From: an uncultured Bacillota bacterium
Lineage (GTDB): Bacteria > Bacillota_I > Bacilli_A > RFN20 > CAG-826
Assembly (NCBI GenBank): GCA_949291655.1
Contig: CASEWT010000007.1
Coordinates: 1 to 32,413 of the forward strand
Length of the DNA stretch: 32,413 nucleotides
Direction: 5' to 3'
The notes under the pieces are model-generated. The model had not been told where the DNA came from, did not search any database, and saw only the letters and a list, made by a program, of their open reading frames with translations. The number at the start of each line of letters is the position of its first letter. The stretch's first letter is position 1. The translations under genes were made by a program, and so were the position numbers. This document shows, one piece after another, positions 827-29,448 of the stretch.

Positions 827-1753
827 CTAAAGGGATATTAGGGCAAAGACGGCGGCAAGCAAAAGGATATGCACCGGGAAGAAGGACCATTCGAAATAGA
901 CCCACCATTTCGGATGATAGCCGCGACGTCCGTTATAAAGGAGGAGGAAGAAGGCGGCGAGGATGCCGTACATCTCGAAGGAGAGGCCCGTTTGGCCGAG
1001 CGGCTCGAAGGAAAAGCCGAGGAGGGGCGTGAGGTAGGAAACGATCCAGAGGACGGCGAAGACGGCAGCCACGGCCGCAGCGTTCAGGGCATTGTGGTGG
1101 CGGCGGTAGGCTTCCGGCCCATAGCTTTCCGGACGGGGGAAGGAGACTTCGGCCCCGTCCTTTGCGAGCAGTCCGGCCCCGACGAGCCTTCCATCCATGG
1201 CCTTCGGAAGGAAATAGAGGGCGAGGAAGAGGGCAAGGCCCATGATGTTGTACTGGGCTAGGAGATAGACCGGGACGTAGGTTTGGATGCCGTTGACCGA
1301 AAGGATGTTCAAAACGCCGGAGCCGATGAGGTAAACGGCAGGCACGGCGATGAGGAAACGCCAGTTCCCGCCCTTTTCGTAGAGGTAGGCGATGGCAGCG
1401 AACGAAAGAAGGTCCCCGAAAGGCTGGGCGAGCCCCGAAAGGGAGGCGAAGGCCGGGATTTGGCCAAGGCCAGCCTGGGCGATGAGCACGAGAACGAAAA
1501 GGATGGCGAAGCGGAGAAGGTAGTTTCCCCGATCGTGGGTCTTCCGCATCCCTTCGGCCACGAAGAAGGCAAAAAGAGGGAAGGAAAGGCGCCCGATGGC
1601 CCGGAGGACGATGACGGCGACGTAAAGGGGATTGCCCTCGACCGGGACGTAGGTCATTTGGATGAAGGCCCCGACATGGTCGAGGAGCATGAGAAGCAAG
1701 GCCAGGACCTTGAGGGAAAAGCCGTCGAGAATCTGGAAACGCTTGGCGTTCAT
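827..1753 (-). CDS. TraX family membrane protein
   Basis: A 308-residue polytopic membrane protein of the TraX family. The family is named for the F-pilin acetylase but is widespread in Bacillota, where its substrates are unknown. It opens with a cytosolic-type start (MNAKRFQILDGFSLKVLAL) followed by LLLMLLDHVGAF, then RLSFPLFAFFVAEG; the C-terminus holds RRGYHPKWWVYFEW-FPVH, all typical TraX blocks. About eight hydrophobic segments are visible. A longer frame upstream exists, but the ATG at 1753 overlaps the TGA of the CPBP gene in an ATGA arrangement and matches the family N-terminus. No Shine-Dalgarno precedes it, so translation is probably coupled to the upstream gene. An acyltransferase role is inferred from the family only. 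Confidence 0.85.
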   Translation of the reverse strand: MNAKRFQILDGFSLKVLALLLMLLDHVGAFIQMTYVPVEGNPLYVAVIVLRAIGRLSFPLFAFFVAEGMRKTHDRGNYLLRFAILFVLVLIAQAGLGQIPAFASLSGLAQPFGDLLSFAAIAYLYEKGGNWRFLIAVPAVYLIGSGVLNILSVNGIQTYVPVYLLAQYNIMGLALFLALYFLPKAMDGRLVGAGLLAKDGAEVSFPRPESYGPEAYRRHHNALNAAAVAAVFAVLWIVSYLTPLLGFSFEPLGQTGLSFEMYGILAAFFLLLYNGRRGYHPKWWVYFEWSFFPVHILLLAAVFALISL

Positions 1754-2634
1754 TGGGCAATCAGGGTCATGATGACCGCGTAGAGATTGTTGACGACGTG
1801 GGCGCTTACCGATGCCGAGAGGCCGAAGCGGTCGTAGGTAAAGGCGAGGATGCCGCCGGCGATGAGGTAGGAGGGGAAGTTCAGCCATTCGTTTACCGAG
1901 CCGAAGTCCTTCATGTGGATGAGGCCGAAGACGACCGTCGCGAAGAGGTAAGCGACCCATCGATTGATCCGCATCCCAAGGTTAAAGAGGCCCACCCGAT
2001 AGGCAAATTCCTCGCAAATCGGGCCTATGATGCCCGTAATCAAGATGCCGAGGAAGGGCGAATAGGTGACGATATTGGTCACGCCGGCCTGGTTGTCGCT
2101 CGTGCCACCGCCGGCGAGGAGGACGATGAGGTTCCAAAGGATCGAGGCGAAGATGAGGGCAAAGCCCAGCCCGGCCCCGATGAGGTATTTCCTCCAATTG
2201 GAAAACTGCCGCTTGGCGATATAGGAGAGGTCCGGCCAGACGACGATGGCTACGGCGATGAAGAAACCGACATAGGCGCCGTAGTTGACGAAGCTCGAGA
2301 AGGCCGCTGAGCTGGCGTAATCGAGAAGGGCTTGTTGGAGGGAACCGCCGGTGAGCCCGGCCCCGACGAGGACTTCCTGGGCCCAGGCTTGGCCGACGAT
2401 CGAAAGAAGGAGACCAATCAGCTGGAAACCGAAAAGGCCGATGAGGAAAAGGGCAAGCTCCCGCCATGTCCCGAGGGGGCAAATGCGTTCGAAGCAGCGG
2501 GTCCATGGATCGTCATAAACGCGGCTGCAGTAGGGGCAGGCATCCCGGGCCGCGTCGATGGTTTTCCCGCATTCGCAGCGGCGTTGGTGGGTGCAATGGA
2601 GGCCGGTTGGCCGGCCGCTTTCTGGTTCTTTCAT
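1750..2634 (-). CDS. CPBP family intramembrane metalloprotease with N-terminal zinc-ribbon-like cysteines
   Basis: A 294-residue membrane protein. Catalytic motifs of the CPBP/Abi (CAAX-protease-like) family are visible in order: Glu208-Glu209 with Arg213 (EExxxR), His240 in FGLIH, and His279 with Asn282/Asn283 in HVVNN. About eight hydrophobic segments run from residue 58 to the end. Ahead of them sits a soluble segment with Cys14, Cys20, Cys22, Cys33 and Cys36 (including CEC and CPYC), which looks like a small zinc ribbon. The ATG at 2634 is preferred over an in-frame start 11 codons upstream because a perfect TATAAT lies 7 bases before it. First gene of the CPBP-TraX-trxA operon. CPBP proteins act on prenylated or bacteriocin-related peptides in some species; the substrate here is unknown. 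Confidence 0.88.
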   Translation of the reverse strand: MKEPESGRPTGLHCTHQRRCECGKTIDAARDACPYCSRVYDDPWTRCFERICPLGTWRELALFLIGLFGFQLIGLLLSIVGQAWAQEVLVGAGLTGGSLQQALLDYASSAAFSSFVNYGAYVGFFIAVAIVVWPDLSYIAKRQFSNWRKYLIGAGLGFALIFASILWNLIVLLAGGGTSDNQAGVTNIVTYSPFLGILITGIIGPICEEFAYRVGLFNLGMRINRWVAYLFATVVFGLIHMKDFGSVNEWLNFPSYLIAGGILAFTYDRFGLSASVSAHVVNNLYAVIMTLIAQ

Positions 2635-2670
2635 CCCCGGGATTATAAACGATTTCCCCTTCTCCAAGGA
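2635..2670 (-). promoter_or_regulatory. promoter of the CPBP-TraX-trxA operon (leaderless layout)
   Basis: On the minus strand TATAAT (plus 2642-2647) stands exactly 7 bases before the ATG at 2634, which places transcription start at or one base before the start codon. No Shine-Dalgarno fits. The -35 is weak: TTGGAG is present, but at only 14 bases. Confidence 0.6.
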
Positions 2671-2726: not shown

Positions 2727-5700
2727 ATGATTGCAGTTCCGGTTTTCCTCAGCGCGGGCATCGACGCCTCCGCCATTGTCAACGTTGTCAATTATGTGAC
2801 CCTCGGCCTTCTTGTCGGGTCCTTGGTCATCGTTTTCTTAGGCTTCCTCCGCGGCCTCTTCCGAGGGTGGCGTTACGGGACCTACCGGCTCGTGATGTTC
2901 GCCCTTCTGGCAGCGGTGGCGATGCTGACCCTCCAGCCGATCGTCAATGCCGTCGGAACCTTCGACCTTGGCCAGCTGGGCCTTGGAAGCAGCTGGGAAT
3001 TGCCGTCTTTTACGTTGAACGTTAACGGGACGAGCGTCACTATTGCTAGCGAAGGCACGACGGCCTTCACGGTCGTTTCCGGCTATATCGAAAACCTCTG
3101 CAAAGCCCTGAACGTCAACATGGCTCCGGCCGATCTTTCAGCCTATGCCCTCTCTTTGGCCGTGAGTCTCGTCTCTTTCTTCCTCATCATGGTCGATGCC
3201 ATTCTCATCGCCATTTTCGGGACCTTCTTCGTCTTCCTTCTATGGCACCTCGCCTTCAAGCGCTTCATAAGCAAGGACAAGCGGAAGGCTTCTTACCGGA
3301 AAGGAAAGATCGTCGGCGGCCTTACCAATTGCCTTGTCTCCGTCCTTTGCCTTGCCATGTTCCTCGCCCCCTTGACGAGCATGGCCAATTCCTTAAGTGC
3401 CGCTTGGAACGGGGCCCAGCTCGACGAAGAGGACCAAACCGTCCTCCATACCGTCGACAATTCGATCTACCAAGCCATCGACGGAGTGGTGGATGCCTAC
3501 GACAATTCGGCCTTCGCCAAGGCTTTCTTCTCCTGGAACAAGGATAGCGAGGGCAAAAGCCTCGACGTGAAGCTCGTCGAGTTCCTGACCTCGACGAGCG
3601 TTTCCCTCGGCGAGCAGGAAAAAATCCAGATGTCTTTCCTGAACGAGCTCTCCTCCTTGGCCGAGGTCTTCACGATTGCCGTCCAGTCCGGGGTCGTCTC
3701 CGAAGAGGGCTTCGACAACATCAAATGGCCCCTCCTTTTGACGACTTCTGCCGCCCCGGAGGCCCTCCGGAGCCTTGCGGGGAGTCGCCTGGTGACCGGG
3801 GTTTTGCCCTATGGCCTTTCGATTCTTGAGAACATCGATCCCGTCTCTAGTTACATCAAGGTCGGGACCGGCATTGACTTCTCCGGCAACTATGAGCTTA
3901 CCCTCGAGGAACTTGCCGATATCTACGACACGGTCCTCGACTCGAATCTCGTCGAAGGGATCGTCGACCCCGAGACCGGGGAGCTCGGCGCTTCCTCGGT
4001 CGTCGCCGGGAACGTCTTGAGCGAGGACAACGCCTCGGTCGTCGCCTCGGTCTTCTCTTCCCTCGACGGGGAGAACCTCCAGATCTTCGACGCCCTCATC
4101 GAAAGCGCGCTTACCATTCAAGCCTACAAGGATTACGAAAGCGGGAACGTCGCTTCCGAGGAGCTTACCGTCGCCGACTTCCTACCGGCCGTAAACCTTT
4201 CCGACTTCGCGCCGGAAGAGGGGAAGCCGACCCTCATCCCGGAGGCCTACAAGGACATCAAATGGGGCGAGATCTTCGCCGACTTCTTCCTTTCGACCGT
4301 CAATCTCGTGAACGTCGACCCCGACCTTTATCTTGCCGTCTGCAATGCCATCCCGGACTGGAATGGCGAGCAAAAGCCCTTCTCCTACCAGGATTTCCTC
4401 GCCCCGATCCTCGAGGACGGAAACTTCGAGAAGGCCAAGGCGGCTCTCGTCGGCACTTCCGAGACGGCCAAGGCGGCGGCCGGGGAGGCCGATGACGGGG
4501 CCATCACGCCCCTTCTCGGGACCGAATTCCTTCTCAATGCCACCCCGAAGCTCATCACCATTCTCGAGAATAGCCTCAACGAGTCCCTCCAGCTGAGCGA
4601 GGACAAGGCAGTTGACCTTTCCGAGATCGCTATCGACATGGCCGCCGATCACTCGATCATCCTTCCCGAGTGGAGCGCCCTTCTCGAAGTCGTCGGAGAC
4701 TTCGCGACGACCGAAGCCGGCCGCGAATTCCTCCTCCACGTCGAGGCGATGCCCGGCATCTATTTCGCCCCCGACCAGAGTTTCGTCGGCGTCGACGAAG
4801 GACTTGCCGACGGCCTTGTCGCCGGCCTCGCCGGCCTCGACTCCTCGCGCCTGGCCACGGCCATTATCCCCCAGGCCTTCGAAGGCTTCCTCGAGGGCGA
4901 GGATTCCCCGATCGCCGACCTCGGGGTCGAGTTGACCTTCGATTTCACCGTTCCGAACATCGGGAGCCAGCTGAGCAACCTCCTCACGACCCTCGTCGAT
5001 GCCCAGGACCTCCTCGCCTACCTTGCCTCCCTTAACGGGCAGAACCTCACCGGCGGACCCCTCAAGAACGCCATCTCGACGATCGCCGATCATTCCGGCG
5101 AGCTCGCCGACCTTCTTTCTTCCGTCGCCGCGAGCCCGATGCTCAACCCGGTCGTCGGAGGCCAAAACAACGCCAACATCGTATCCCTCATCGGCCTCGT
5201 CTTCTCGACCATCGGCCTCAAGGAGCCGGAGAACCTTTCAGCGACTCTTTCCGGCCTTGCCCCGGAGGCGACGGCCGCCGAAATGGAGCATTTCGTGGCG
5301 GCCCTTGTCAACGTCATGGATTCAGGGCTCGTCGATGCGGCTTTGGATGAGAACATCGACCTTGGCTCCTTTGCCGAGGTTTCCTTCGAGGCGGCCTTTG
5401 CCAAGTTCGACGAGAGCCTCATCTTCCGCGATTGCTTCGGCCCGGTCCTCGATGGCTTGCTAGAGGATAGCGAAGCCTTCGCTTCCTTCTTCGCGGAAGG
5501 CTTTTCCTTCGCCAACGTCACCGATTGGCAAAAGGAAGGACAGAACCTTGACGTCCTCATCGCTTCCGTCGACGAGCTTGGGGCCGCCGGCCTCCTCGAC
5601 GGCGGGACGATCGATGTCTTCAATAGCGATCCGGGTGCCGTCGAGAACATCGTTAGTGTCCTTGCCACGAGCGACCTCTTTGTCAGCCGCGAGGAGGGCG

Positions 5701-8700
5701 GGACCTATACGTATTCCTTCCCACGGATCGTCGCGAAGATGATCGAAGACAACCTTCCGGCCGGAAGCGAAGCCGCCTCTTTCTTCAAGGTGCCGGATGG
5801 GGACGGGGTTGCCGCCCTCGCCTTGGACATCCGCTCGACCGCCGTCGAAGGCGGAAGTGCCGCCGATGTCGAGGCGAGCCAAGACCTCTGGAAGGAAGAA
5901 GCCCATCGCTTTGCCCTCATCCTCCGGGACATCCTTTCCCTCGGCGGGATCGATTCGATTGCCGTCGACGGGGGGATGAGCCTCAAGGAAATGAGCCCCG
6001 AGCCCCTCGACTTCCTCCTCCGCGACGCGACCGAGCTCCTCGTTTTCGGACGGGTCCTCAACTATTCGCTCTATAGTCTCCTTTCCGAGCAGATTGCCGC
6101 CACCTTCCCTTCGGCCGAAGGCCTGAGCAACCTGGATGCCTTCTATGAGCCGACCCTTGCCTCTTACCAAGAAACCATCGCTGTAAGCGGCAACGTCTTC
6201 GAAAGCGAGGCCGAGACGATGAGCAAGCTCGTCTATGCCGTTCTCGACCCCTCGACCGGCATTGCCGAGGCCATCGGCGAGGATGGGACGGTTTCCATCG
6301 ACATCAATGATGTCTCTCCCGAGTACCTTGTCCGGCCGCTCCTCCAGTCCCTTTCCGGGAGCCAACTTTTCAACTCCCTCGCCGCCGGGAATGCCAAGAC
6401 GGCCTACGAGGGAATCCTCGGAACCCTGCTTGAGGATAGCGGTCTCTTTGAGGAAGGCGAGGCCGAGTCCTACGTTACTTCCGTCCGCGGTGACCATGAG
6501 GACTTCGCGGCCATCGTGGAAGCCTGGGACGTCGAAAACGAGGCCATCGTCGCGACGGTATCCGCCGTTCAGGAGAGCGGGGTTTCCACCGATAGCCTCG
6601 CCTCCGACCCGATGTCCTTCTTCGCGGAGGGGAGCAGCTATAGCCTCCAGCGCGCCCGCCTCGAGAACATTCTCGTCGCGGCGGCCGATTCCAAGATCAT
6701 CCGCCCGGCTTTGGCAAGCATCGTCGAGACGGGGGCCGCTTCCATCGGGGAAGGATATGCCGTCAATTCCGAATGGCTCCTCGAGGCTTCCTCCGCCGAG
6801 TACAAAGAGGAGGCCCGAACCCTCAGCTATGTCATGCTCTACGGCTCGCTCGTCGACGACCTCGGGAACCTTTCCATCGGTTCCGTCGTCGATTCGCCGG
6901 CGGCCGAGAACCTTCTTCGGGAAGCGGCCCGAAGCTACGTTTTCAATACCTTGCCCGCCGGAGAAGAAGGCTACTACCCGGCTTTCGTCCAGATGGTCGA
7001 CGACATTTTGTCCTCGAGCGGCTACTACGGGGACGAGGGCGATGCCTTGACGTCCGAGCGGATCGATGAAGTCATCGGCCGGATCGATGTTCCCGGGATG
7101 GAAGACGAAGCCCGCTTCGCTTCTTGGGAAGAGGAAATCGATGCCCTCATGGATGCCCTTTCCACCCTTGAGGAGACCGGGCTCGAGCTTTCTGGAAGCA
7201 TCGACGTCGGAAGCCTCTTCCCGGGAGGGGCCGAGGAAGCCCTCCTCGACGAGCGGGAAGCTAGCCTCGCCGCCTTCCTCGTGGCCGCCAACGACAGCCG
7301 CCTCGTCTATCCTGGCCTCGCCTCGGTTCTAAGCGAGGCCGTCAGTAACGTTTCCCTCCCTAACGGCGCGAGCCTCGAGAATGCCAATTACTATTACGGG
7401 GAGCGGGGAAGCGCGGACATCGATTACGGCTTCCTTTCGGCGCCCTATGACGATGCGGAAATGGAGCGCCTAGCCGCCATCGTCCGCCGGGCCAACGCCC
7501 TGAGCGCCGAGACCGATTTCTCGATCGAGAACCTGAGCGGCACCCCGGATGCCGAGATTCTTCTCCGGAACCTCGCTGCGAGCGCGATCTTCGACTCCCT
7601 TGCCGAGGAACGCTCTTCCTCTTCTGACTTCGGGGAATACACCGTTTTCGAGAATCTTTTGGCCTCGTCCCTCGAGGCTTCGGGCTTCTACGGCTCCGAC
7701 GGCGCCTCTTCCATCCGGATCGAGGAAATCCTCGGCCGGGCCCTTACCGAGGAGGGCTCTTCCCGCTTCATGACCTTTGAGGAGCGGAATGCCTTCTGGA
7801 ACGGCGACGGGACGACGGGCGAAATCGCCTCCCTCGTCGCTCTCGCCGACTCGATTGCCGAAGGGCAAAACCTCGGCATCGACTTCGGGAGCCTCTCCTT
7901 TGCCGAGCTTTTCGCCGACGCGGCCGAGGCCGAGACGGTAAGGACGGCCCTCTACGGGATCCTCGATGCCGCTTCCTCATGCCAAATCGTTTACCCGGCC
8001 ATCCCCCTCAACCTTGAATCCGCCACCGGGGAAGGCGATTCCTTCTCGTTAGAAGGGGCCGACTTCTATTACACCGGGCGGTGGGGTAGCCAAACCGATC
8101 TCCTCGAGCGGCCCTATGCCGATGCCGAGAACGAGCGTCTCAGCTACGTCGCCATGTATGCCGGCCTTCTCGGCTCGACCGATCTTTCGAGCCTCGATAA
8201 CATCGATGGGGGCGAGGTCGGAGGCCTTTTGGCCAACATGTCCTCTTCCTATATCTTCAATGCCGCTTCCGAGGGGAGCCCGAACGCTTTCGTCGGAGCC
8301 TTGAACACTCTCCTCAGCGACAATGCGACGATTTCCGGCCTCTATTTCTCGAGCGAGAACCCGGTCAACGCCTACCTAGGCTACGCGGGCGCCGAGGAAA
8401 AAGCCGCCGGGCTCGCCGAAGAGCGTTATCCCGCCCTTTCCTATGGCGATGAAGACGCCGGCAAGCGGAACTGGGGCGACTTCCTGACCTCGGAAGCCGG
8501 CGACGGGGTAACGAGCCTCGAAGCGATCATCGATTCCGAGGGACTTGGCTCGGTCATCGACGGCTTAGCTGGCGAAGGGGCTGTGACCCTCCCGAAAGAG
8601 CGGGAGGAGCTTTCCTCGGTCCTTGCTCTTGTGAGCGGCTCGCCGCTTCTCAAGGACATGGTCCCCAATGCCGTCCGAAAGGCCCTCCAAGATGGTAGCG

Positions 8701-11111
8701 GCATCGCCTTCGAGGGGGTCGACTTTGCCCGCTCGAACCCCTATTTCGCCTACTTTGAGGCGGAATGGCCGTCAGTCCCGGACGAAGACGCGACCTCTTC
8801 GGCCCTTGCCCTTCGCTGGTTCAGCGAGGAGGAAATCGCCTCCATCGTCGATGTCGTCTACGATGCCGAGAGCCTCAATTCGTTCTTCTCGAGCTTCGAT
8901 GTGATCACCCGAGAGGCGATAGGCAACATTCGCGTCCTCCTTCAGGAAATGGCTGGTTCGAAGGTCTTCAACTCGGTGCCCTTCGAGGCGACCCCCGGCT
9001 TTGCGGTGACCGACTCCTCTTCGGGAGCGAGCGTCCCCGTCGATAGCCGCCTCAATGTCTTCCAAGGCACTCTCTTCTACATGATGGTGGAGACCTTCCT
9101 TTACGAACGGGCCTACAATCCGGTCCTCGATGCCGAAAGGGGCTTCCCCTCGGCCGGGGCGAAGCTGACCTCCTCCCTTTTTGCCGCGACCGGGTCCTTC
9201 GATGATTCCTTCGAAACGAAAAGGAGCCTCGGGGAGAAAGCCGTCGACGCCTTGGTGAGCGATGGCCTGGACGGCGGGCTCCTCAACACCGTCTTCCAGG
9301 AGCTTTCCGTCGACGGGAGCCTCGCTCTCGACTTCTCCAACGAAGGGGTCCTCGACTTTGAGGACATCAACCCGACTTCCCTTGGGAAGATCCTCCAAAG
9401 CCTCAACGCCGTCGACTTCTGCGAAGGAGTCATCGCTAACGGGGCCGAGTACCTCCTCAGCGACGCCATCAACCTCGGAGCCTGGTCGATGGTGACGACC
9501 GACCGGAAGCTCGAGGGCGAGCGGGGGAGCCTCCGCCTCAACGAGATCGCCTATGTCGGTACCGGAACCGCTCCCTCGGCTCTCTACTACCATTATGGCG
9601 AGGGCTACCGTTCGGTGAGCCCGGACGCGAATGGCGTCTATTCCTTCCGCGACGAGAACGCTCCCCACGGGGAAAGCTCGCTCGTCGGTCCGACCGACGT
9701 CTATCTCGACGCCGGGCTGACCGTAAGCCTCTTCGCTTCGGATAGCGCCGCTGACTTCTCCTTCGTCTACGATCTATCGACCTACCACCTCCTGACGCGG
9801 GAACAGTACCGGACCGGGGCCATTCCCTCCCTCGTCCGCTTCCTCGGGAACGTCCTCTACGACTACGAGGCTGAAAGCTATGACCAAATCGAAAGCGCCG
9901 ACGACTTCTTCGCCCCGCTGTTGGACGGTTCCGGTGAAGGAGGGGTCGACTACGTCTACGAAATCGCTTCCTTCCTCTTGAACGCCGACGGCTTCTTCAA
10001 TGCCGACTTCGATAAGGATGGCGGCATCCTTTCTTCCGACCCCGACGCCGGAAATCTTGCCTACATCTCCGGGGATATCCTCGTCCGGAACTTCCTCCAG
10101 TTCAGCGTTTCTGTCCCCGCTGCCCCGGGCGAGGCCTTGGAGGTCGACCTCGGGAGTCTCTTCCTCCACGAAGTGTCTTCCGACCCGGTCGCTACCGAGC
10201 GGAGCCTCATTTCCTCGATCCACGAGGCGATGTATGAGGAGGCGAACATGGTTAGCGGAAGCGGTGAGGTCCCGACCTACGCCGAGCGGGAGGCTGCCTA
10301 CCCCGGAGGCCTTACTTACCTAAGCGAGAACCTTGCGGCGATCACGACGGCAGCCGCCCTCTACCAAGCGGCCGAAAGCTACGTCTATCCGAATGCCTCC
10401 AAAGCCTTCAAGGAACTCTTCCTCGCTTCTTCGAATACCCTCGGGCTGATGGAAAAAGCGAGCGGAGCTCTTAGCCTTACTTCGGTTGCCAATAACGTCG
10501 TCTCGAGCCTCGTCAATACGTCCTTTGCTTCCGGCCTTGCCTTCGAAGCCCATCCGAACCGGGGTTTCCTTGGCATCGTCGTGTCGATCGAGGGAATATC
10601 CACGGTTACCATCGGAACGGTCCAAGGCCTACCTAGTAGCACGGCTAAGCGACAGGAAATCGACGCTTTGGGCGGCGCGATGCCGACCGGCCTCGAGGAA
10701 CTCAGGGCCATCTCCTATGCTTCCGATCCGGATTTCTATCGCGCGCTTTATGCGGTCTTGTCCGAGGCATCGGGCCTCCTCGAAAGGACGGTCGACGCTT
10801 CTTACGTTTCCGCCATCGAGGAACTCAATACCGCGGGCCTGACCCTCGAAAACGTGACGCTACGAGGGCTTGCATCGACGCTCCTCGATTCCTACTTCTA
10901 CGAACTTGTCGTTGGCGGCCTCTATATCCATACTCTCGTGGCGATCGGGGAAAATTCGACCGCCGTCTACGGGTCGGGCGGCCGGTTGCTGAGCACGGCG
11001 GAAATCGCGGCATTGAAGACCTCTTCCGTCGATTTCGACGGCTCGGCTCATTACTTTGGGACGGACGGCTATCTCGCGCAAGCGGCCGGACTCATCAGGC
11101 AATCCCTCTAA
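2727..11111 (+). CDS. giant membrane-anchored protein: CvpA-like N-terminal domain plus ~2,550-residue repeat-containing exterior region
   Basis: About 2,794 residues. Residues 1-240 hold hydrophobic segments at roughly 14-40, 48-75, 130-180 (long, perhaps two helices) and 195-220, with GFLRGLFRG after the first and KIVGGLTNC before the last. This layout resembles the four-helix CvpA family. The rest (about 240-2794) is soluble, acidic and low in cysteine, with no further membrane segment, LPxTG motif or S-layer anchor, so the protein is held only by its N-terminus. The soluble part consists of predicted helices in a recurring pattern (LLxxLAxSxxFNxL); the clearest copies are at residues 1213, 1404, 1620, 1842 and 2079. 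I recognise no enzymatic motif and give no function; a surface or cell-envelope scaffold is a guess. The ATG at 2727 is preferred to an in-frame TTG 12 codons upstream, which forms the -35 box. Base usage matches the neighbours, so recent transfer is not indicated. Confidence 0.85.
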   Translation: MIAVPVFLSAGIDASAIVNVVNYVTLGLLVGSLVIVFLGFLRGLFRGWRYGTYRLVMFALLAAVAMLTLQPIVNAVGTFDLGQLGLGSSWELPSFTLNVNGTSVTIASEGTTAFTVVSGYIENLCKALNVNMAPADLSAYALSLAVSLVSFFLIMVDAILIAIFGTFFVFLLWHLAFKRFISKDKRKASYRKGKIVGGLTNCLVSVLCLAMFLAPLTSMANSLSAAWNGAQLDEEDQTVLHTVDNSIYQAIDGVVDAYDNSAFAKAFFSWNKDSEGKSLDVKLVEFLTSTSVSLGEQEKIQMSFLNELSSLAEVFTIAVQSGVVSEEGFDNIKWPLLLTTSAAPEALRSLAGSRLVTGVLPYGLSILENIDPVSSYIKVGTGIDFSGNYELTLEELADIYDTVLDSNLVEGIVDPETGELGASSVVAGNVLSEDNASVVASVFSSLDGENLQIFDALIESALTIQAYKDYESGNVASEELTVADFLPAVNLSDFAPEEGKPTLIPEAYKDIKWGEIFADFFLSTVNLVNVDPDLYLAVCNAIPDWNGEQKPFSYQDFLAPILEDGNFEKAKAALVGTSETAKAAAGEADDGAITPLLGTEFLLNATPKLITILENSLNESLQLSEDKAVDLSEIAIDMAADHSIILPEWSALLEVVGDFATTEAGREFLLHVEAMPGIYFAPDQSFVGVDEGLADGLVAGLAGLDSSRLATAIIPQAFEGFLEGEDSPIADLGVELTFDFTVPNIGSQLSNLLTTLVDAQDLLAYLASLNGQNLTGGPLKNAISTIADHSGELADLLSSVAASPMLNPVVGGQNNANIVSLIGLVFSTIGLKEPENLSATLSGLAPEATAAEMEHFVAALVNVMDSGLVDAALDENIDLGSFAEVSFEAAFAKFDESLIFRDCFGPVLDGLLEDSEAFASFFAEGFSFANVTDWQKEGQNLDVLIASVDELGAAGLLDGGTIDVFNSDPGAVENIVSVLATSDLFVSREEGGTYTYSFPRIVAKMIEDNLPAGSEAASFFKVPDGDGVAALALDIRSTAVEGGSAADVEASQDLWKEEAHRFALILRDILSLGGIDSIAVDGGMSLKEMSPEPLDFLLRDATELLVFGRVLNYSLYSLLSEQIAATFPSAEGLSNLDAFYEPTLASYQETIAVSGNVFESEAETMSKLVYAVLDPSTGIAEAIGEDGTVSIDINDVSPEYLVRPLLQSLSGSQLFNSLAAGNAKTAYEGILGTLLEDSGLFEEGEAESYVTSVRGDHEDFAAIVEAWDVENEAIVATVSAVQESGVSTDSLASDPMSFFAEGSSYSLQRARLENILVAAADSKIIRPALASIVETGAASIGEGYAVNSEWLLEASSAEYKEEARTLSYVMLYGSLVDDLGNLSIGSVVDSPAAENLLREAARSYVFNTLPAGEEGYYPAFVQMVDDILSSSGYYGDEGDALTSERIDEVIGRIDVPGMEDEARFASWEEEIDALMDALSTLEETGLELSGSIDVGSLFPGGAEEALLDEREASLAAFLVAANDSRLVYPGLASVLSEAVSNVSLPNGASLENANYYYGERGSADIDYGFLSAPYDDAEMERLAAIVRRANALSAETDFSIENLSGTPDAEILLRNLAASAIFDSLAEERSSSSDFGEYTVFENLLASSLEASGFYGSDGASSIRIEEILGRALTEEGSSRFMTFEERNAFWNGDGTTGEIASLVALADSIAEGQNLGIDFGSLSFAELFADAAEAETVRTALYGILDAASSCQIVYPAIPLNLESATGEGDSFSLEGADFYYTGRWGSQTDLLERPYADAENERLSYVAMYAGLLGSTDLSSLDNIDGGEVGGLLANMSSSYIFNAASEGSPNAFVGALNTLLSDNATISGLYFSSENPVNAYLGYAGAEEKAAGLAEERYPALSYGDEDAGKRNWGDFLTSEAGDGVTSLEAIIDSEGLGSVIDGLAGEGAVTLPKEREELSSVLALVSGSPLLKDMVPNAVRKALQDGSGIAFEGVDFARSNPYFAYFEAEWPSVPDEDATSSALALRWFSEEEIASIVDVVYDAESLNSFFSSFDVITREAIGNIRVLLQEMAGSKVFNSVPFEATPGFAVTDSSSGASVPVDSRLNVFQGTLFYMMVETFLYERAYNPVLDAERGFPSAGAKLTSSLFAATGSFDDSFETKRSLGEKAVDALVSDGLDGGLLNTVFQELSVDGSLALDFSNEGVLDFEDINPTSLGKILQSLNAVDFCEGVIANGAEYLLSDAINLGAWSMVTTDRKLEGERGSLRLNEIAYVGTGTAPSALYYHYGEGYRSVSPDANGVYSFRDENAPHGESSLVGPTDVYLDAGLTVSLFASDSAADFSFVYDLSTYHLLTREQYRTGAIPSLVRFLGNVLYDYEAESYDQIESADDFFAPLLDGSGEGGVDYVYEIASFLLNADGFFNADFDKDGGILSSDPDAGNLAYISGDILVRNFLQFSVSVPAAPGEALEVDLGSLFLHEVSSDPVATERSLISSIHEAMYEEANMVSGSGEVPTYAEREAAYPGGLTYLSENLAAITTAAALYQAAESYVYPNASKAFKELFLASSNTLGLMEKASGALSLTSVANNVVSSLVNTSFASGLAFEAHPNRGFLGIVVSIEGISTVTIGTVQGLPSSTAKRQEIDALGGAMPTGLEELRAISYASDPDFYRALYAVLSEASGLLERTVDASYVSAIEELNTAGLTLENVTLRGLASTLLDSYFYELVVGGLYIHTLVAIGENSTAVYGSGGRLLSTAEIAALKTSSVDFDGSAHYFGTDGYLAQAAGLIRQSL
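6300..9026 (+). repeat. diverged tandem protein repeats of ~190-240 residues inside the giant gene
   Basis: Landmark 1, [QYAK]-[LVI]-F-[ND]-[ST/A], starts at residues 1213, 1404, 1620, 1842 and 2079 (spacings 191, 216, 222, 237). Landmark 2, the AADSKIIRPAL / ANDSRLVYPGL / ASSCQIVYPAI / VSGSPLLKDMV series, is centred at residues 1321, 1523, 1751 and 1971 (spacings 202, 228, 220). Both ladders keep the same phase, so these are true repeats. Between them recur SG-[LYF]-[FY]-G turns and YYxG blocks. The units containing residues 1523-1620 and 1751-1842 are the most alike. Weaker, shorter echoes such as LRSLAGSRLVTGVLP and DFLLRDATELLVF occur upstream, so the repeat may extend through most of the exterior region. 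Confidence 0.75.
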
Positions 11112-11720
11112 ATGCTTACTATCAAGGAGCCCGTCGTCCGGGAGACGAAAATCCTTTCCAGTCGTTTCATCGGGGTTTTGCTGCCGCTTTTGGGTACCGA
11201 CTTCAAGCTAGCGAGGGTCGAGATCGAACGCCTTTATCCGAAGGCCGACCACTATTGCTATGCCTATAAGCAAGGCGCGAAGGAAGGAAGTAGCGACGAC
11301 GGGGAGCCCTCCCATTCGGCCGGGCTTCCCCTCCTCAACGTCCTTCGGGGGTCGCTCCTCGACGAGTGCGCCCTCTTCGTCGTCCGCTATTTCGGAGGGA
11401 CCAAGCTCGGCCTCGGGCGCCTCACCCACGCCTATTCCGATCTTGCCAAGGCGGTGGTGGCGGATGCCGTCCCCTTCGAGGCCAAACCGGGAAAAAAGGC
11501 CACGCTCGACATTCCCTATCCTTCCTATGACCTGGCCCGCGACCGGGCGGAAAGGATGGGGCTTGAGGCCGGAAAGCCATCTTTCCATGCCTCCGTTCTC
11601 CTCCCGGTTGCCGGCGATGCTACAATTCTTAGGGCTTTCCTTCTCCTCTTCCCGGAAATCCGGGCCGCGGGGGAGGAAGACTGCTTTGTTTATAGGAGGC
11701 CAAGCCATGATCAAGGCTAG
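11112..11720 (+). CDS. YigZ / IMPACT (UPF0029) family protein
   Basis: A 202-residue cytosolic protein with the IMPACT signature blocks SSDDGEPSHSAGLPLLNVL and VVRYFGGTKLGLGRLTHAY in the N-terminal half and a small alpha/beta C-terminal domain. IMPACT proteins bind translation-related partners in eukaryotes; the bacterial role is unsettled. The ATG directly abuts the TAA of the giant gene with no Shine-Dalgarno, so translation probably depends on termination of the upstream gene. It overlaps the next gene, an aminopeptidase, by 14 bases. Identification is firm; function is not. Confidence 0.9.
   Translation: MLTIKEPVVRETKILSSRFIGVLLPLLGTDFKLARVEIERLYPKADHYCYAYKQGAKEGSSDDGEPSHSAGLPLLNVLRGSLLDECALFVVRYFGGTKLGLGRLTHAYSDLAKAVVADAVPFEAKPGKKATLDIPYPSYDLARDRAERMGLEAGKPSFHASVLLPVAGDATILRAFLLLFPEIRAAGEEDCFVYRRPSHDQG
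11618..11626 (+). promoter_or_regulatory. possible internal extended -10 promoter before the aminopeptidase
   Basis: TGCTACAAT within yigZ fits an extended -10 (TGnTAnnnT), about 80 bases before the aminopeptidase start. The same nine bases precede the ATP-grasp gene at 25048. There is no good -35. This may be chance in coding sequence. Confidence 0.25.
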
Positions 11721-12999
11721 CGAATACAGCGAGCGCCGTGAGAAGCTCATCAACATGATGGAGCCCCAGTCGGCAATGGTTCTTTTTTCCGGGGTCGAGA
11801 AATGCAAGTCGGCCGACGAGGACTACCCCTTCGAGGTCGCCCGGAACTTCTATTACCTCACGGGCATCGACCAGCCCGACAGCATGCTCCTCCTCGTCAA
11901 TGTCGACGGGGAGCGGAAGGAATTCCTCTTCGTCTCGCCCTTCGACGAGCGGAAGGAGAAGTGGTACGGCCGCCGCTTGAGCCTCGAAGAGGCCGAAGCC
12001 CGCTCCGGCATCCGAAACGTCCTCGTCAATTTCTCCTTCCAAGGGAAGCTCGACGCAACGCTATCTCCGGCGATCAGCCAGTTCGGGGACGTCTCGAGCC
12101 TCTACGTCGATCTCGACCGCGAGCTGAAGATTGCCGATGGCACCTACGTCGAGGACTTCCTTTCGACGATTAAGAACGCCTACGGAAACGTCGCCATCCT
12201 CAACGCCTATCCCCTCGTCACCCAGCTCCGCCTCCGCAAGAGCGTCGGGGAAATCCAAGAGCTGAGAAGCGCCATCAAGACGACCCACATCGGGATCAAC
12301 GCCGCCCTGAAAATCCTCGAGCCGGGACGGAAGGAATATGAGCTGGCCGACGCTTTCCGCCACGCCATCAACGACAGCAACGGGTATCAGGGGGAATCAT
12401 TCAATACCATCATGGCGAGCGGAATCCATACGACCTGCCTTCATTATCCGCGGCCGGTCGATACCATTCCCGCCGGTAGCCTCGTCCTCATGGACCTTGG
12501 GGCCCGGAACGGCTATTACTGCGCCGACGTGAGCCGGACCTACCCGGCCGACGGGAAGTTCTCGCCCGAGCAGCGCTCGGCCTACGAGCTCGTCCTCGAG
12601 GCCAACAAGATGACGGCGGACCTCGCCAAGCCCGGGGTCACCATCGAAGAGCTCCAGAACGCCGTCATCGCCCTCTATGAGCGGGAGCTGCCGCGGCGGG
12701 GGCTTTTATCCGAAGGGGAGAAAGTGGAAGACGTCTACTTCCATAGCGTTTCCCATTTCATCGGCCTCGACACCCACGATCCCTACCTTTCCCCGAGCGA
12801 TCGTTCCTACCGGAAGATCCCCCTCGAGCCGGGGATGGTCATCTCCGACGAGCCGGGGCTCTACTTCTCCCGCCTCGGCTTCGGGATAAGGATCGAGGAC
12901 GATCTTCTCATCACCGAGCACGGTTCCGACGTCCTTACCCGTGACATCCCGAAGGAAACCGACCAGATCGAGCGCCTGCTCCAAAGCCAAAAGAAGTAG
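11707..12999 (+). CDS. pepP: Xaa-Pro aminopeptidase (M24 family)
   Basis: A 430-residue cytosolic metallopeptidase that removes N-terminal residues preceding proline. Residues 1 to about 165 form the aminopeptidase-P N-terminal domain; the remainder is the pita-bread catalytic fold. The dimetal ligands are all visible in order: Asp in LMDLGARNGYY, Asp in CADVSRTY, His in SVSHFIGLDTHD, Glu in ISDEPGLYF and Glu in IRIEDDLL. A much longer frame upstream is an alternative-frame artefact over yigZ; the ATG at 11707 is set by TAGGAGG about 8 bases upstream. It is the last gene of the giant-yigZ-pepP operon and is closed by a terminator. It might also have its own weak internal promoter. Confidence 0.95.
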   Translation: MIKASEYSERREKLINMMEPQSAMVLFSGVEKCKSADEDYPFEVARNFYYLTGIDQPDSMLLLVNVDGERKEFLFVSPFDERKEKWYGRRLSLEEAEARSGIRNVLVNFSFQGKLDATLSPAISQFGDVSSLYVDLDRELKIADGTYVEDFLSTIKNAYGNVAILNAYPLVTQLRLRKSVGEIQELRSAIKTTHIGINAALKILEPGRKEYELADAFRHAINDSNGYQGESFNTIMASGIHTTCLHYPRPVDTIPAGSLVLMDLGARNGYYCADVSRTYPADGKFSPEQRSAYELVLEANKMTADLAKPGVTIEELQNAVIALYERELPRRGLLSEGEKVEDVYFHSVSHFIGLDTHDPYLSPSDRSYRKIPLEPGMVISDEPGLYFSRLGFGIRIEDDLLITEHGSDVLTRDIPKETDQIERLLQSQKK

Positions 13000-27164: not shown

Positions 27165-27701
27165 ATGAACCTTTGGCACGCCGTGAGAAAAGAACGCATT
27201 GCCCCGACCAAATTCCTTTGCTGCGTCGAGATAAGCGCCGATTCCTCGCTCAAATATGAGCTTGACAAGGAGACGGGAGCCCTCCGGCTCGACCGCATCC
27301 TTTCGACGGCTACCCATTACCCGCACAACTACGGCTTCATCCCCCGGACCCTCGGGGACGACGGCGACCCCCTCGACGTCCTCCTCATCGCCTCGCGGCC
27401 GATCCAGCCCTTGGCCCTAGCCCGGGCCCTCCCCCTCGGGGTCGTCATGATGGAAGATAGCGGCCGGGGCGACGAGAAGATTCTTGCCATTTGCCCCGAC
27501 GACCCGGTCTACGGCGGTTACCGCTCCCTTGAGGAGCTACCGCCCCACCTCGGACCGGAAATCGCCCATTTCTTCGCCGTCTACAAGGGCCTCGAGCCTG
27601 GCAAGAGCACCGAAGTCGGCGATATCTTGGGCCGGGAGAAGGCCGTTTCCGTCATCAAGGAAGCCATGGAGAGGTATGAGCGCGCTTTTCCCGAGCCTTA
27701 A
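27165..27701 (+). CDS. ppa: inorganic pyrophosphatase (family I)
   Basis: A 178-residue soluble enzyme that hydrolyses pyrophosphate to two phosphates and drives biosynthetic reactions forward. The family signature D-G-D-P-L-D-V is at residues 66-72, with upstream HYPHNYGFIP (51-60) and downstream EDSGRGDEKI (97-106), which supply metal-binding aspartates and a lysine. The length fits family I. It overlaps the next gene, a VanZ protein, by 26 bases, so the two are one transcription unit. Confidence 0.96.
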   Translation: MNLWHAVRKERIAPTKFLCCVEISADSSLKYELDKETGALRLDRILSTATHYPHNYGFIPRTLGDDGDPLDVLLIASRPIQPLALARALPLGVVMMEDSGRGDEKILAICPDDPVYGGYRSLEELPPHLGPEIAHFFAVYKGLEPGKSTEVGDILGREKAVSVIKEAMERYERAFPEP

Positions 27702-29448
27702 GCATCGGCATTGGACGGTTTATTTCTTCATGGCCCTCTATGGGCTTGCTGCCGCCTTTACCGTCGTAGAAAGCGCCCTCCCGGGCGATGTTAGTTCGAC
27801 CCAGTCTTCTTTCATCGGGAACGTTTTAGCATGGTTTGCCAACCTCTTCCCAGCCGCCGAGCCGACGCCCGTTCACCCGACGGGGATCCGCCTCCTTTCG
27901 AGCTCTAGTTACCTTGACGCCCTCGAGGACGATCCCTCTTCCAACCAGGTGTGCCTCGGGACGACTTCGATGCTGACCTTCGAACTCGACTATCCCGAGA
28001 GTTCGGAAGGGACCTACGAGTACGCCTCCTTCCGTGCCGAGGCGGTGAAGGGCGGGGAAAACTTCTCCTTGGTCGTCGATCCCTCTTCCTTCGTCGTGAG
28101 GATCGTCTCCGATGGGGAAGCGGCCGAGGATTGCGAAATAGCCGTCTACGGGGACGAAGGCGTCTCCATGACCTATTCCTTCGACATCGTCCCCCGTCCG
28201 GCGCCTATCTCCTTCGAGCTTGAGTCCTTTCCTTCTTCCATCCAAGCCGGGACGGCCGCCTCTTTCGACCTCGTCATCGAAGACCCGATCGGCGAGCGGA
28301 GCGACTATGAGCTTCGCCGCTACTTCGACGTTTCCGCCCTCGAAATCGAAAGCGAGGAAGGCATTCACGTCGACCCCCGGGGAAGCCTTTTCGTGGAGAG
28401 CGGCGTCACCCCCGGGTCCCATTCCTTTGTCATCGGCGGAAAAAGCTATTCCTTCGACGTCATAAGCCCCATCGGGGTCCATTACGACGTCGATGGCATC
28501 GCCCTTAGCGAGGTCGTGGGCGAACTGGCCCTCAACGACTACGACTATGGGCAGTCCGGCGTTTCCTTTGCCGCTTCTTACGTAGGGACCTCGGTTCCCG
28601 AAGAGGGCCTATTCCTCCTCTCCCTCGACGAGATGAAGGCCCGGGCCGTCGATCCTTCCGGCTCCTCTTTCAACGTCAAGGGCTACCGGAAGGAGGCAAG
28701 CGAAGAAGACCCGCTCCTCATCCGGGTGGAAAGCGCCGTCTTGAAAGGGGGGACAAACGAGCCCTTGGCAAGCGTGACCCTCTCCCTTACCTCGAAGGAA
28801 GTCCTCCCGGTTTCGATCGAAAGCCTCCGGGTCGGGAACGCTCCCCTTACGGACGGCGGCCAATTCAAGGCGAATGCCGGCTCCTCGGCTTCCGTCGCCG
28901 TCTCTTTCCTTGGGGCCAACAGAAGCGAAAACGTCTATGACCGTTCGATTGCCCTCGTCTCTTCGAATCCGGACGTCGCCTCCGTGAGCGGCTCCCCTTC
29001 CCTTTCCCCGCGGATTTCCTTCCATAAGGAAGGAAGCGCCTTATTTACGGTGACTTCGAGAGCCAATCCGAGCCTCGAGGTCTCTTTCTCGGTAAGCGTC
29101 GAGGGTGCGGTTAACGTCGATCCGGAGGACGAGGACTTCGCCATCGCCGTCCGGAAGAACATCGGGCACCTCTCCCTTTTTGCCTTCCTCGGGGGCATCG
29201 GGGCCCTATTCTTCGCCCTCTATTTCGGAGATCCCCGGAAGGCATACCTAACCGTGGCCTTCTCCGGCGGGATTGCCGCCATCTTGGCCTTCCTGACCGA
29301 GGGCATCCAGATGCTTGCCCCGATGCGGGGCCCAAGCCTCGTTGACGTCGGGATCAACCTTGCTGGGGCCTTCATCGGCCTATTGGCCTTCCTTCTCGTC
29401 TACGGGATCGTCCTCCTCATCAAGTCCCGGCGGGATAGAAAGGGCTAA
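27676..29448 (+). CDS. VanZ-like membrane protein with a large inserted extracytoplasmic region
   Basis: A 590-residue protein. One membrane helix at about 11-32 is followed by the VanZ-like ESALPGDVSSTQS block. The C-terminus holds the rest of a VanZ domain: VRKNIGHLSLFAFLGG (about 491-506), a third helix with LTEGIQMLAPMRGPSLVDVGINLAGAFIG (about 541-569) and a final helix and basic tail. Ordinary VanZ proteins are 150-200 residues because these parts are almost contiguous. Here about 430 beta-rich residues (60-490) are inserted; near 455-485 they show an Ig-like (BIG2-type) end, with SSNPDVASVSG and a late FSVSVEG strand. VanZ family members are linked to glycopeptide resistance and envelope functions, but the insertion has no assigned role. 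The ATG at 27676 overlaps ppa; the ribosome site GGAGAGG is very close to it. Confidence 0.82.
   Translation: MSALFPSLKHRHWTVYFFMALYGLAAAFTVVESALPGDVSSTQSSFIGNVLAWFANLFPAAEPTPVHPTGIRLLSSSSYLDALEDDPSSNQVCLGTTSMLTFELDYPESSEGTYEYASFRAEAVKGGENFSLVVDPSSFVVRIVSDGEAAEDCEIAVYGDEGVSMTYSFDIVPRPAPISFELESFPSSIQAGTAASFDLVIEDPIGERSDYELRRYFDVSALEIESEEGIHVDPRGSLFVESGVTPGSHSFVIGGKSYSFDVISPIGVHYDVDGIALSEVVGELALNDYDYGQSGVSFAASYVGTSVPEEGLFLLSLDEMKARAVDPSGSSFNVKGYRKEASEEDPLLIRVESAVLKGGTNEPLASVTLSLTSKEVLPVSIESLRVGNAPLTDGGQFKANAGSSASVAVSFLGANRSENVYDRSIALVSSNPDVASVSGSPSLSPRISFHKEGSALFTVTSRANPSLEVSFSVSVEGAVNVDPEDEDFAIAVRKNIGHLSLFAFLGGIGALFFALYFGDPRKAYLTVAFSGGIAAILAFLTEGIQMLAPMRGPSLVDVGINLAGAFIGLLAFLLVYGIVLLIKSRRDRKG

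Follow-up and report, generated by a model that had tools for sequence, protein, structure and literature searches.

A giant protein of Bacilli with a CvpA-like membrane module and a repeat-built, probably extracellular region

The stretch of DNA analysed here (the window, 32,413 nucleotides) encodes a protein of 2,794 residues that is very probably a CvpA-anchored, outward-facing giant built of repeats. As for its role, we somewhat favour a CvpA-tethered surface rod, extended by repeats and ending in a fast-evolving tip, that would act as an adhesin or coat; our confidence in this whole model is modest because we infer its function (adhesion or coat). The genome is one that we take to belong to order RFN20. 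The features of the gene are:

2727-11111, forward strand: giant gene, 2,794 aa (ORF with ATG start, single copy in the genome)
2727-3413, forward strand: CvpA-like four-helix membrane module, residues 1-229 (hydropathy, Colicin_V in orthologues, HMM-HMM comparison)
2793-2849, 2889-2945, 3162-3218 and 3309-3365, forward strand: transmembrane (TM) segments of the module (hydropathy)
2850-2888, forward strand: predicted first cytoplasmic loop with the RGLFRGWRYGTYR block, net charge +4, the family's most conserved motif
3243-3308, forward strand: predicted second cytoplasmic loop, WHLAFKRFISKDKRKASYRKGK, net charge +8 (sequence, loop charge)
3414-5108, forward strand: conserved, putatively membrane-proximal ectodomain core, residues 230-794 (36-sequence alignment; model nearly all-helical)
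5109-5522, forward strand: repeat unit 1, residues 795-932 (repeat HMM)
5646-6242, forward strand: repeat unit 2, residues 974-1172 (repeat HMM)
6339-6851, forward strand: repeat unit 3, residues 1205-1375 (repeat HMM)
6909-7511, forward strand: repeat unit 4, residues 1395-1595 (repeat HMM)
7560-8171, forward strand: repeat unit 5, residues 1612-1815 (repeat HMM)
8226-8879, forward strand: repeat unit 6, residues 1834-2051 (repeat HMM)
8937-9476, forward strand: repeat unit 7, residues 2071-2250 (repeat HMM)
9477-11108, forward strand: distal tip, residues 2251-2794 (fastest-evolving part, confined to close relatives)

Coding status and family searches

The frame at 2727-11111 (forward strand) runs for 2,794 codons without an internal stop, whereas the longest ORF in shuffled windows (n = 50) was 324 residues. 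Relative to orthologues that were 81% and 98% identical, dN/dS was 0.22 and 0.11, respectively. The gene is thus coding and under purifying selection, and the ORF, the shuffled-window control and dN/dS together confirm the single, huge, uninterrupted gene of ~2,794 residues proposed in the first-pass annotation. A Pfam search with the whole window protein returned no match at E ≤ 10, and sequence searches of the PDB with the N-terminus and with the whole protein gave nothing credible. PADLOC had no match for the giant, and a defence role was therefore rejected. The Spiroplasma motility protein Scm1 (NF033571) gave a weak, sub-threshold NCBIfam match over TM3-TM4 (E 0.003) that was present only in the window protein and one near-identical sibling; at 16–20 bits against an equivalog cut-off of 150 bits it was judged to be due to chance.

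The N-terminal module is related to CvpA

Four strong TM segments were predicted from hydropathy (residues 23-41, 55-73, 146-164 and 195-213), with a weaker hydrophobic stretch at 2-20. Beyond residue 213, a single marginal stretch (2614-2632) was found and otherwise none above threshold, in agreement with the N-terminal hydrophobic layout and the lack of other membrane segments described at first pass. The GFLRG block described with them was also present, directly C-terminal to TM1, and G43 and G47 were invariant among 36 homologues.

As in CvpA, there are four TM segments within the first ~240 residues together with basic cytoplasmic loops. Although the window protein itself had no Pfam match, Colicin_V (PF02674) matched the N-terminus of an orthologous giant (hmmscan, E 1.8e-5), orthologue N-termini in searches of three genomes (G041, 4e-5; G051, 1e-4; G013, 6.5e-4) and distant giants (best E 2.2e-7). 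HMM-HMM alignment of 38 giant N-termini with 18 CvpA proteins from the same order gave a probability of 97.1% (E 7e-11) over 196 columns that included all four helices, while an unrelated membrane family used as a control (TraX) gave 1%. These sequence comparisons support the relationship of the giant N-terminus to CvpA/Colicin_V that had been suspected from the letters. Other Pfam matches in distant giants (DUF7779, McpB_HAMP, ATG5_HBR and others) occurred in one member each and were dismissed as chance in repetitive sequence.

The profile derived from the giants also found frames of ~280–305 codons in the order (e.g. 4.7e-13 in G142), presumed to be CvpA, and a separate stand-alone CvpA is encoded by a 270-codon frame in the same genome (G000:C2). 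Classical CvpA shares with the giant the four-helix module, an RG-rich first cytoplasmic loop and a basic second loop, but it is small (stand-alone homologues here are ~180–390 codons) and has no giant exterior, whereas in the 2,794-residue protein the module makes up only 8%. Given this size and share, and the separate stand-alone CvpA in the genome, we regard the giant as carrying a CvpA-type domain rather than as a classical CvpA. The known phenotype of CvpA is deoxycholate resistance in enterics (PMC6705877).

Predicted topology and surface exposure

Averaged over 38 members, the loop charges, read from the N-terminus through to the segment following TM4, were -2.1, +3.1, -4.7, +8.1 and -7.8. 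Under the positive-inside rule, this alternation predicts an external N-terminus, four helices and an external C-terminus, which supports the outward orientation proposed initially. The region that follows the module contained 16.0% D+E and 4.5% K+R (neighbouring cytosolic enzymes, 12–13% K+R), and neither an LPXTG-like motif nor a lipobox was found in the giant, so that the acidic exterior without a wall-anchor motif is confirmed as described. The acidic stretch of 2,500 residues would thus lie outside the cell, as would the N-terminus, and with this placement the CvpA module may act as a signal-anchor that stands in for a signal peptide, a sortase motif and a lipid anchor.

A reversed orientation, with an intracellular acidic region, is very improbable. 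HEAT-like solenoids, to which the repeats may be similar (see below), are known mostly from intracellular proteins, and the giant has no signal peptide; against this, the mean loop charges of the 38 members fit the N-out/C-out arrangement and the K+R content is far below that of the cytosolic neighbours. MarP (Rv3671c), a mycobacterial membrane serine protease the four-TM part of which is a CvpA-type module, also argues for an external region. It has four TM helices and a protease domain outside the cell (PMC4992679), and is thus a precedent for four TM helices followed by an external C-terminal domain. Both proteins would combine four N-terminal TM helices with a large domain outside; the exterior of MarP, a protein of ~397 residues, is one trypsin-like protease domain, whereas in the giant helical repeats make up an exterior of 2,500 residues, and neither Pfam nor NCBIfam detected a protease domain, of the MarP type or any other, in the window protein.

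Anatomy and predicted structure of the exterior

The exterior had been described as a single enormous region, helical and acidic. Its helical and acidic character was borne out, but it is not featureless, as it comprises a conserved core, tandem repeats that went unnoticed at first pass and a variable tip. Within the core, Y258, S261, D280, G576, E648 and D705 were invariant or nearly so among 36 proteins. An iterated HMM identified seven degenerate repeats of ~140–220 residues each that span residues 795-2250, as well as a weak eighth match inside the core (265-386). The repeats emerged from profiles, whereas self-BLAST of the single giant sequence detected none; reversed and shuffled distant giants, used as controls, yielded no repeats. 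Full-length orthologues had 2 to 11 units, and repeat number tracked protein length (r 0.94, 29 proteins), showing that repeat number explains the length of the giants. Repeats were not found elsewhere in the same genome. The units had no match in Pfam (HEAT included) and thus form a family absent from that database; in PDB sequences the matches were weak and not credible (eIF4G, virilizer). Nor was an adhesin or ligand-binding domain of a known family found in the giant, a point against the surface-rod model. The last 344 residues were 55% identical between the same two orthologues that were 81% identical overall.

AlphaFold2 models were built for residues 1-1090 (36 sequences) and 1091-2190 (10 sequences). 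Their mean pLDDT was 78 and pTM 0.55–0.58, and they were nearly all helical, in line with the helical exterior proposed before any model was made. Foldseek ranked HEAT solenoids first for both models, significantly for the repeat part alone, which matched SF3b, CRM1 and CAND1 with E 3.6e-4 at a TM-score of ~0.1; VIA-align placed no PDB chain above Z 5.0 (repeat part, Z ≤ 3.8). Because of the TM-score and the VIA-align result, we treat the HEAT-like fold as a lead rather than an assignment, and the models hint weakly at an alpha-solenoid. The repeats may resemble the HEAT alpha-solenoids of SF3b1, CRM1 and CAND1 in local helical pattern, but those proteins are eukaryotic and intracellular and have no sequence match to the giant. 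The models cover multi-domain stretches, and the lack of a match to a known fold does not establish a new one. If the lead holds, the repeats would stack as an extended HEAT-like rod, the reach of which would be set by repeat number.

Distribution among relatives

The N-terminal profile matched 108 of 192 genomes of the order, and giants (an N-terminal match in a frame of >580 codons) were found in 97 of them. Across the class, 98 of 296 genomes matched, and most of 20 loci fetched from these had four TM segments within ~240 residues followed by an acidic region. The repeat HMM matched at three loci outside the order (L170, L171 and L178) and four in other families of the order (L192-L194 and L197). 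Among the class-wide members, the one at L173 (G345:C1) was 3,689 residues long. Named relatives were Bacilli MAGs, including Candidatus Alloenteromonas, which we take to be placed in GTDB order RFN20, and isolate names referred mostly to the gut of horse, sheep, goat, deer and chicken. The same two-part architecture is therefore present in relatives order-wide and class-wide. No description of CvpA-anchored giants was found in the open-access literature on CvpA and giant bacterial proteins; the suggestion of an undescribed class of tethered surface giants stands in that respect, while its limitation to one lineage does not, as the class spans Bacilli more widely.

Several loci were unusual in their own right. 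Two had CvpA-anchored giants in tandem (L181:3647-15449, 2,942 and 961 aa; L182:4001-16015, 2,640 and 1,327 aa). In each case the third protein in line is acidic, with ~580 aa and one TM segment. At L165 (1-18168, reverse strand), a CvpA-like N-terminus begins a frame of at least 6,056 codons that runs off the end of the fetched stretch and adjoins a partial frame (530 codons) in which repeats are present. At L043 (G060:C4:111282-113411), the orthologue match crosses one TAG in a 1,593-codon frame, possibly a pseudogene or an assembly error.

Genomic neighbourhood, loss and possible function

The neighbours of the giant are:

827-1960, reverse strand: TraX-family membrane protein (PF05857, 2.5e-16), divergent neighbour
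1750-2667, reverse strand: CPBP (Rce1-like) intramembrane protease (PF02517, 6.6e-15), divergent neighbour
11112-11720, forward strand: UPF0029 (YigZ/IMPACT family), adjoining the giant's stop codon (TAAATG)
11260-12999, forward strand: M24 aminopeptidase P (Pfam domains)

The TraX start codon is probably further in, as the ORF overlaps the CPBP gene, and the true start of the M24 gene probably lies near 11720, as its domains begin at residue 156. The CPBP protease has an N-terminal zinc-ribbon-like CxxC stretch, and the CPBP-TraX pair stays with UPF0029 where the giant is lost. Elsewhere in the window, a 654-aa ORF (27484-29448, forward strand) had a weak C-terminal VanZ-like match.

The slot (CPBP-TraX, divergent from giant-UPF0029-M24-FGGY) was kept wherever neighbours were readable in the order, and the TraX and UPF0029 flanks persisted at L192 and L193, which belong to other families of the order. 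In seven genomes (G014, G017, G029, G077, G096, G098 and G114), no giant lay between still-adjacent TraX and UPF0029 genes, and some giant-less genomes retained CPBP, TraX, UPF0029 and M24. As other families have the giant in place, these empty slots are most simply explained by natural loss; several genomes have apparently undergone clean loss of the giant, which is hence dispensable.

The PF00905 transpeptidase was found neither in the giant's own genome nor in any listed same-genus genome; of the 192 genomes in the order, 25 had it. Sortase (PF04203) was not found in this genome (~91% complete), and the sortase family occurred in 3 of the 192; with no C-terminal motif and no PF04203, the giant is not a sortase-anchored LPXTG protein. 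Published work predicts that some RFN20 families have lost peptidoglycan and that the order has no sortases (PMC10868615, PMC7301438). The absence of PF00905 from this genus might suggest that giants form a protein coat that gives mechanical protection after peptidoglycan loss. We consider this improbable, as loss of the giant is seen in several wall-less genomes and the cross-table runs the opposite way: giants were present in 23 of 25 transpeptidase-positive but 74 of 167 transpeptidase-negative genomes (raw counts, kinship ignored). This cross-table indicates that the giant is probably no wall substitute and predates wall loss, and the wall-substitute idea was rejected.

A different role, rather unlikely in our view, is that the CvpA module and core belong to a housekeeping membrane complex in which the repeats dock extracytoplasmic proteins or space the membrane from the surface, adhesion not being the protein's job. 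Such an envelope scaffold is consistent with a slot shared between the genera and families of the order, the strongly conserved core with its many invariant residues, purifying selection throughout and retention in 23 of the 25 transpeptidase genomes. Strict synteny of this sort would sooner be expected from a core envelope gene than from an adhesin, which counts against the rod model. Clean losses in same-genus genomes, however, speak against an essential scaffold, and no neighbour was co-lost, as CPBP, TraX and UPF0029 stay. We lean towards the surface rod, since the tip varies, repeat number differs between members and some species have lost the gene; these features suggest that the rod may serve for adhesion or as a protein coat on the cell surface of gut Bacilli that would be mostly without sortase and often without a wall.

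Comparison with known giant surface proteins

Sortases are nearly absent from these bacteria, and many have no wall. A CvpA-anchored giant would offer one general answer to how they display large proteins, and would assign the poorly understood CvpA module a definite role in anchoring proteins that face outward. It is quite possible, and we propose it tentatively, that CvpA modules are the general signal-anchor for giant extracytoplasmic proteins of alpha-solenoid form (~850 to >6,000 residues). These would make up an undescribed superfamily that goes back to the ancestors of many non-model Bacilli, wall-less relatives of Acholeplasma among them, and that provides surface display independent of sortase. 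Comparable by description are Giant1-5 of Apilactobacillus kunkeei, extracellular proteins of 3,000–8,000 aa, among which Giant1-3 form rods composed mostly of alpha-helical repeats (PMC12863079). Both sets would be huge extracellular Bacilli proteins with helical repeat rods, but those of A. kunkeei have an N-terminal-proximal beta-solenoid (Giant1-4) and DUF5776 or SH3b-like C-terminal domains, and their description does not mention CvpA (PMC12863079), whereas the giant described here begins with a CvpA-like module.
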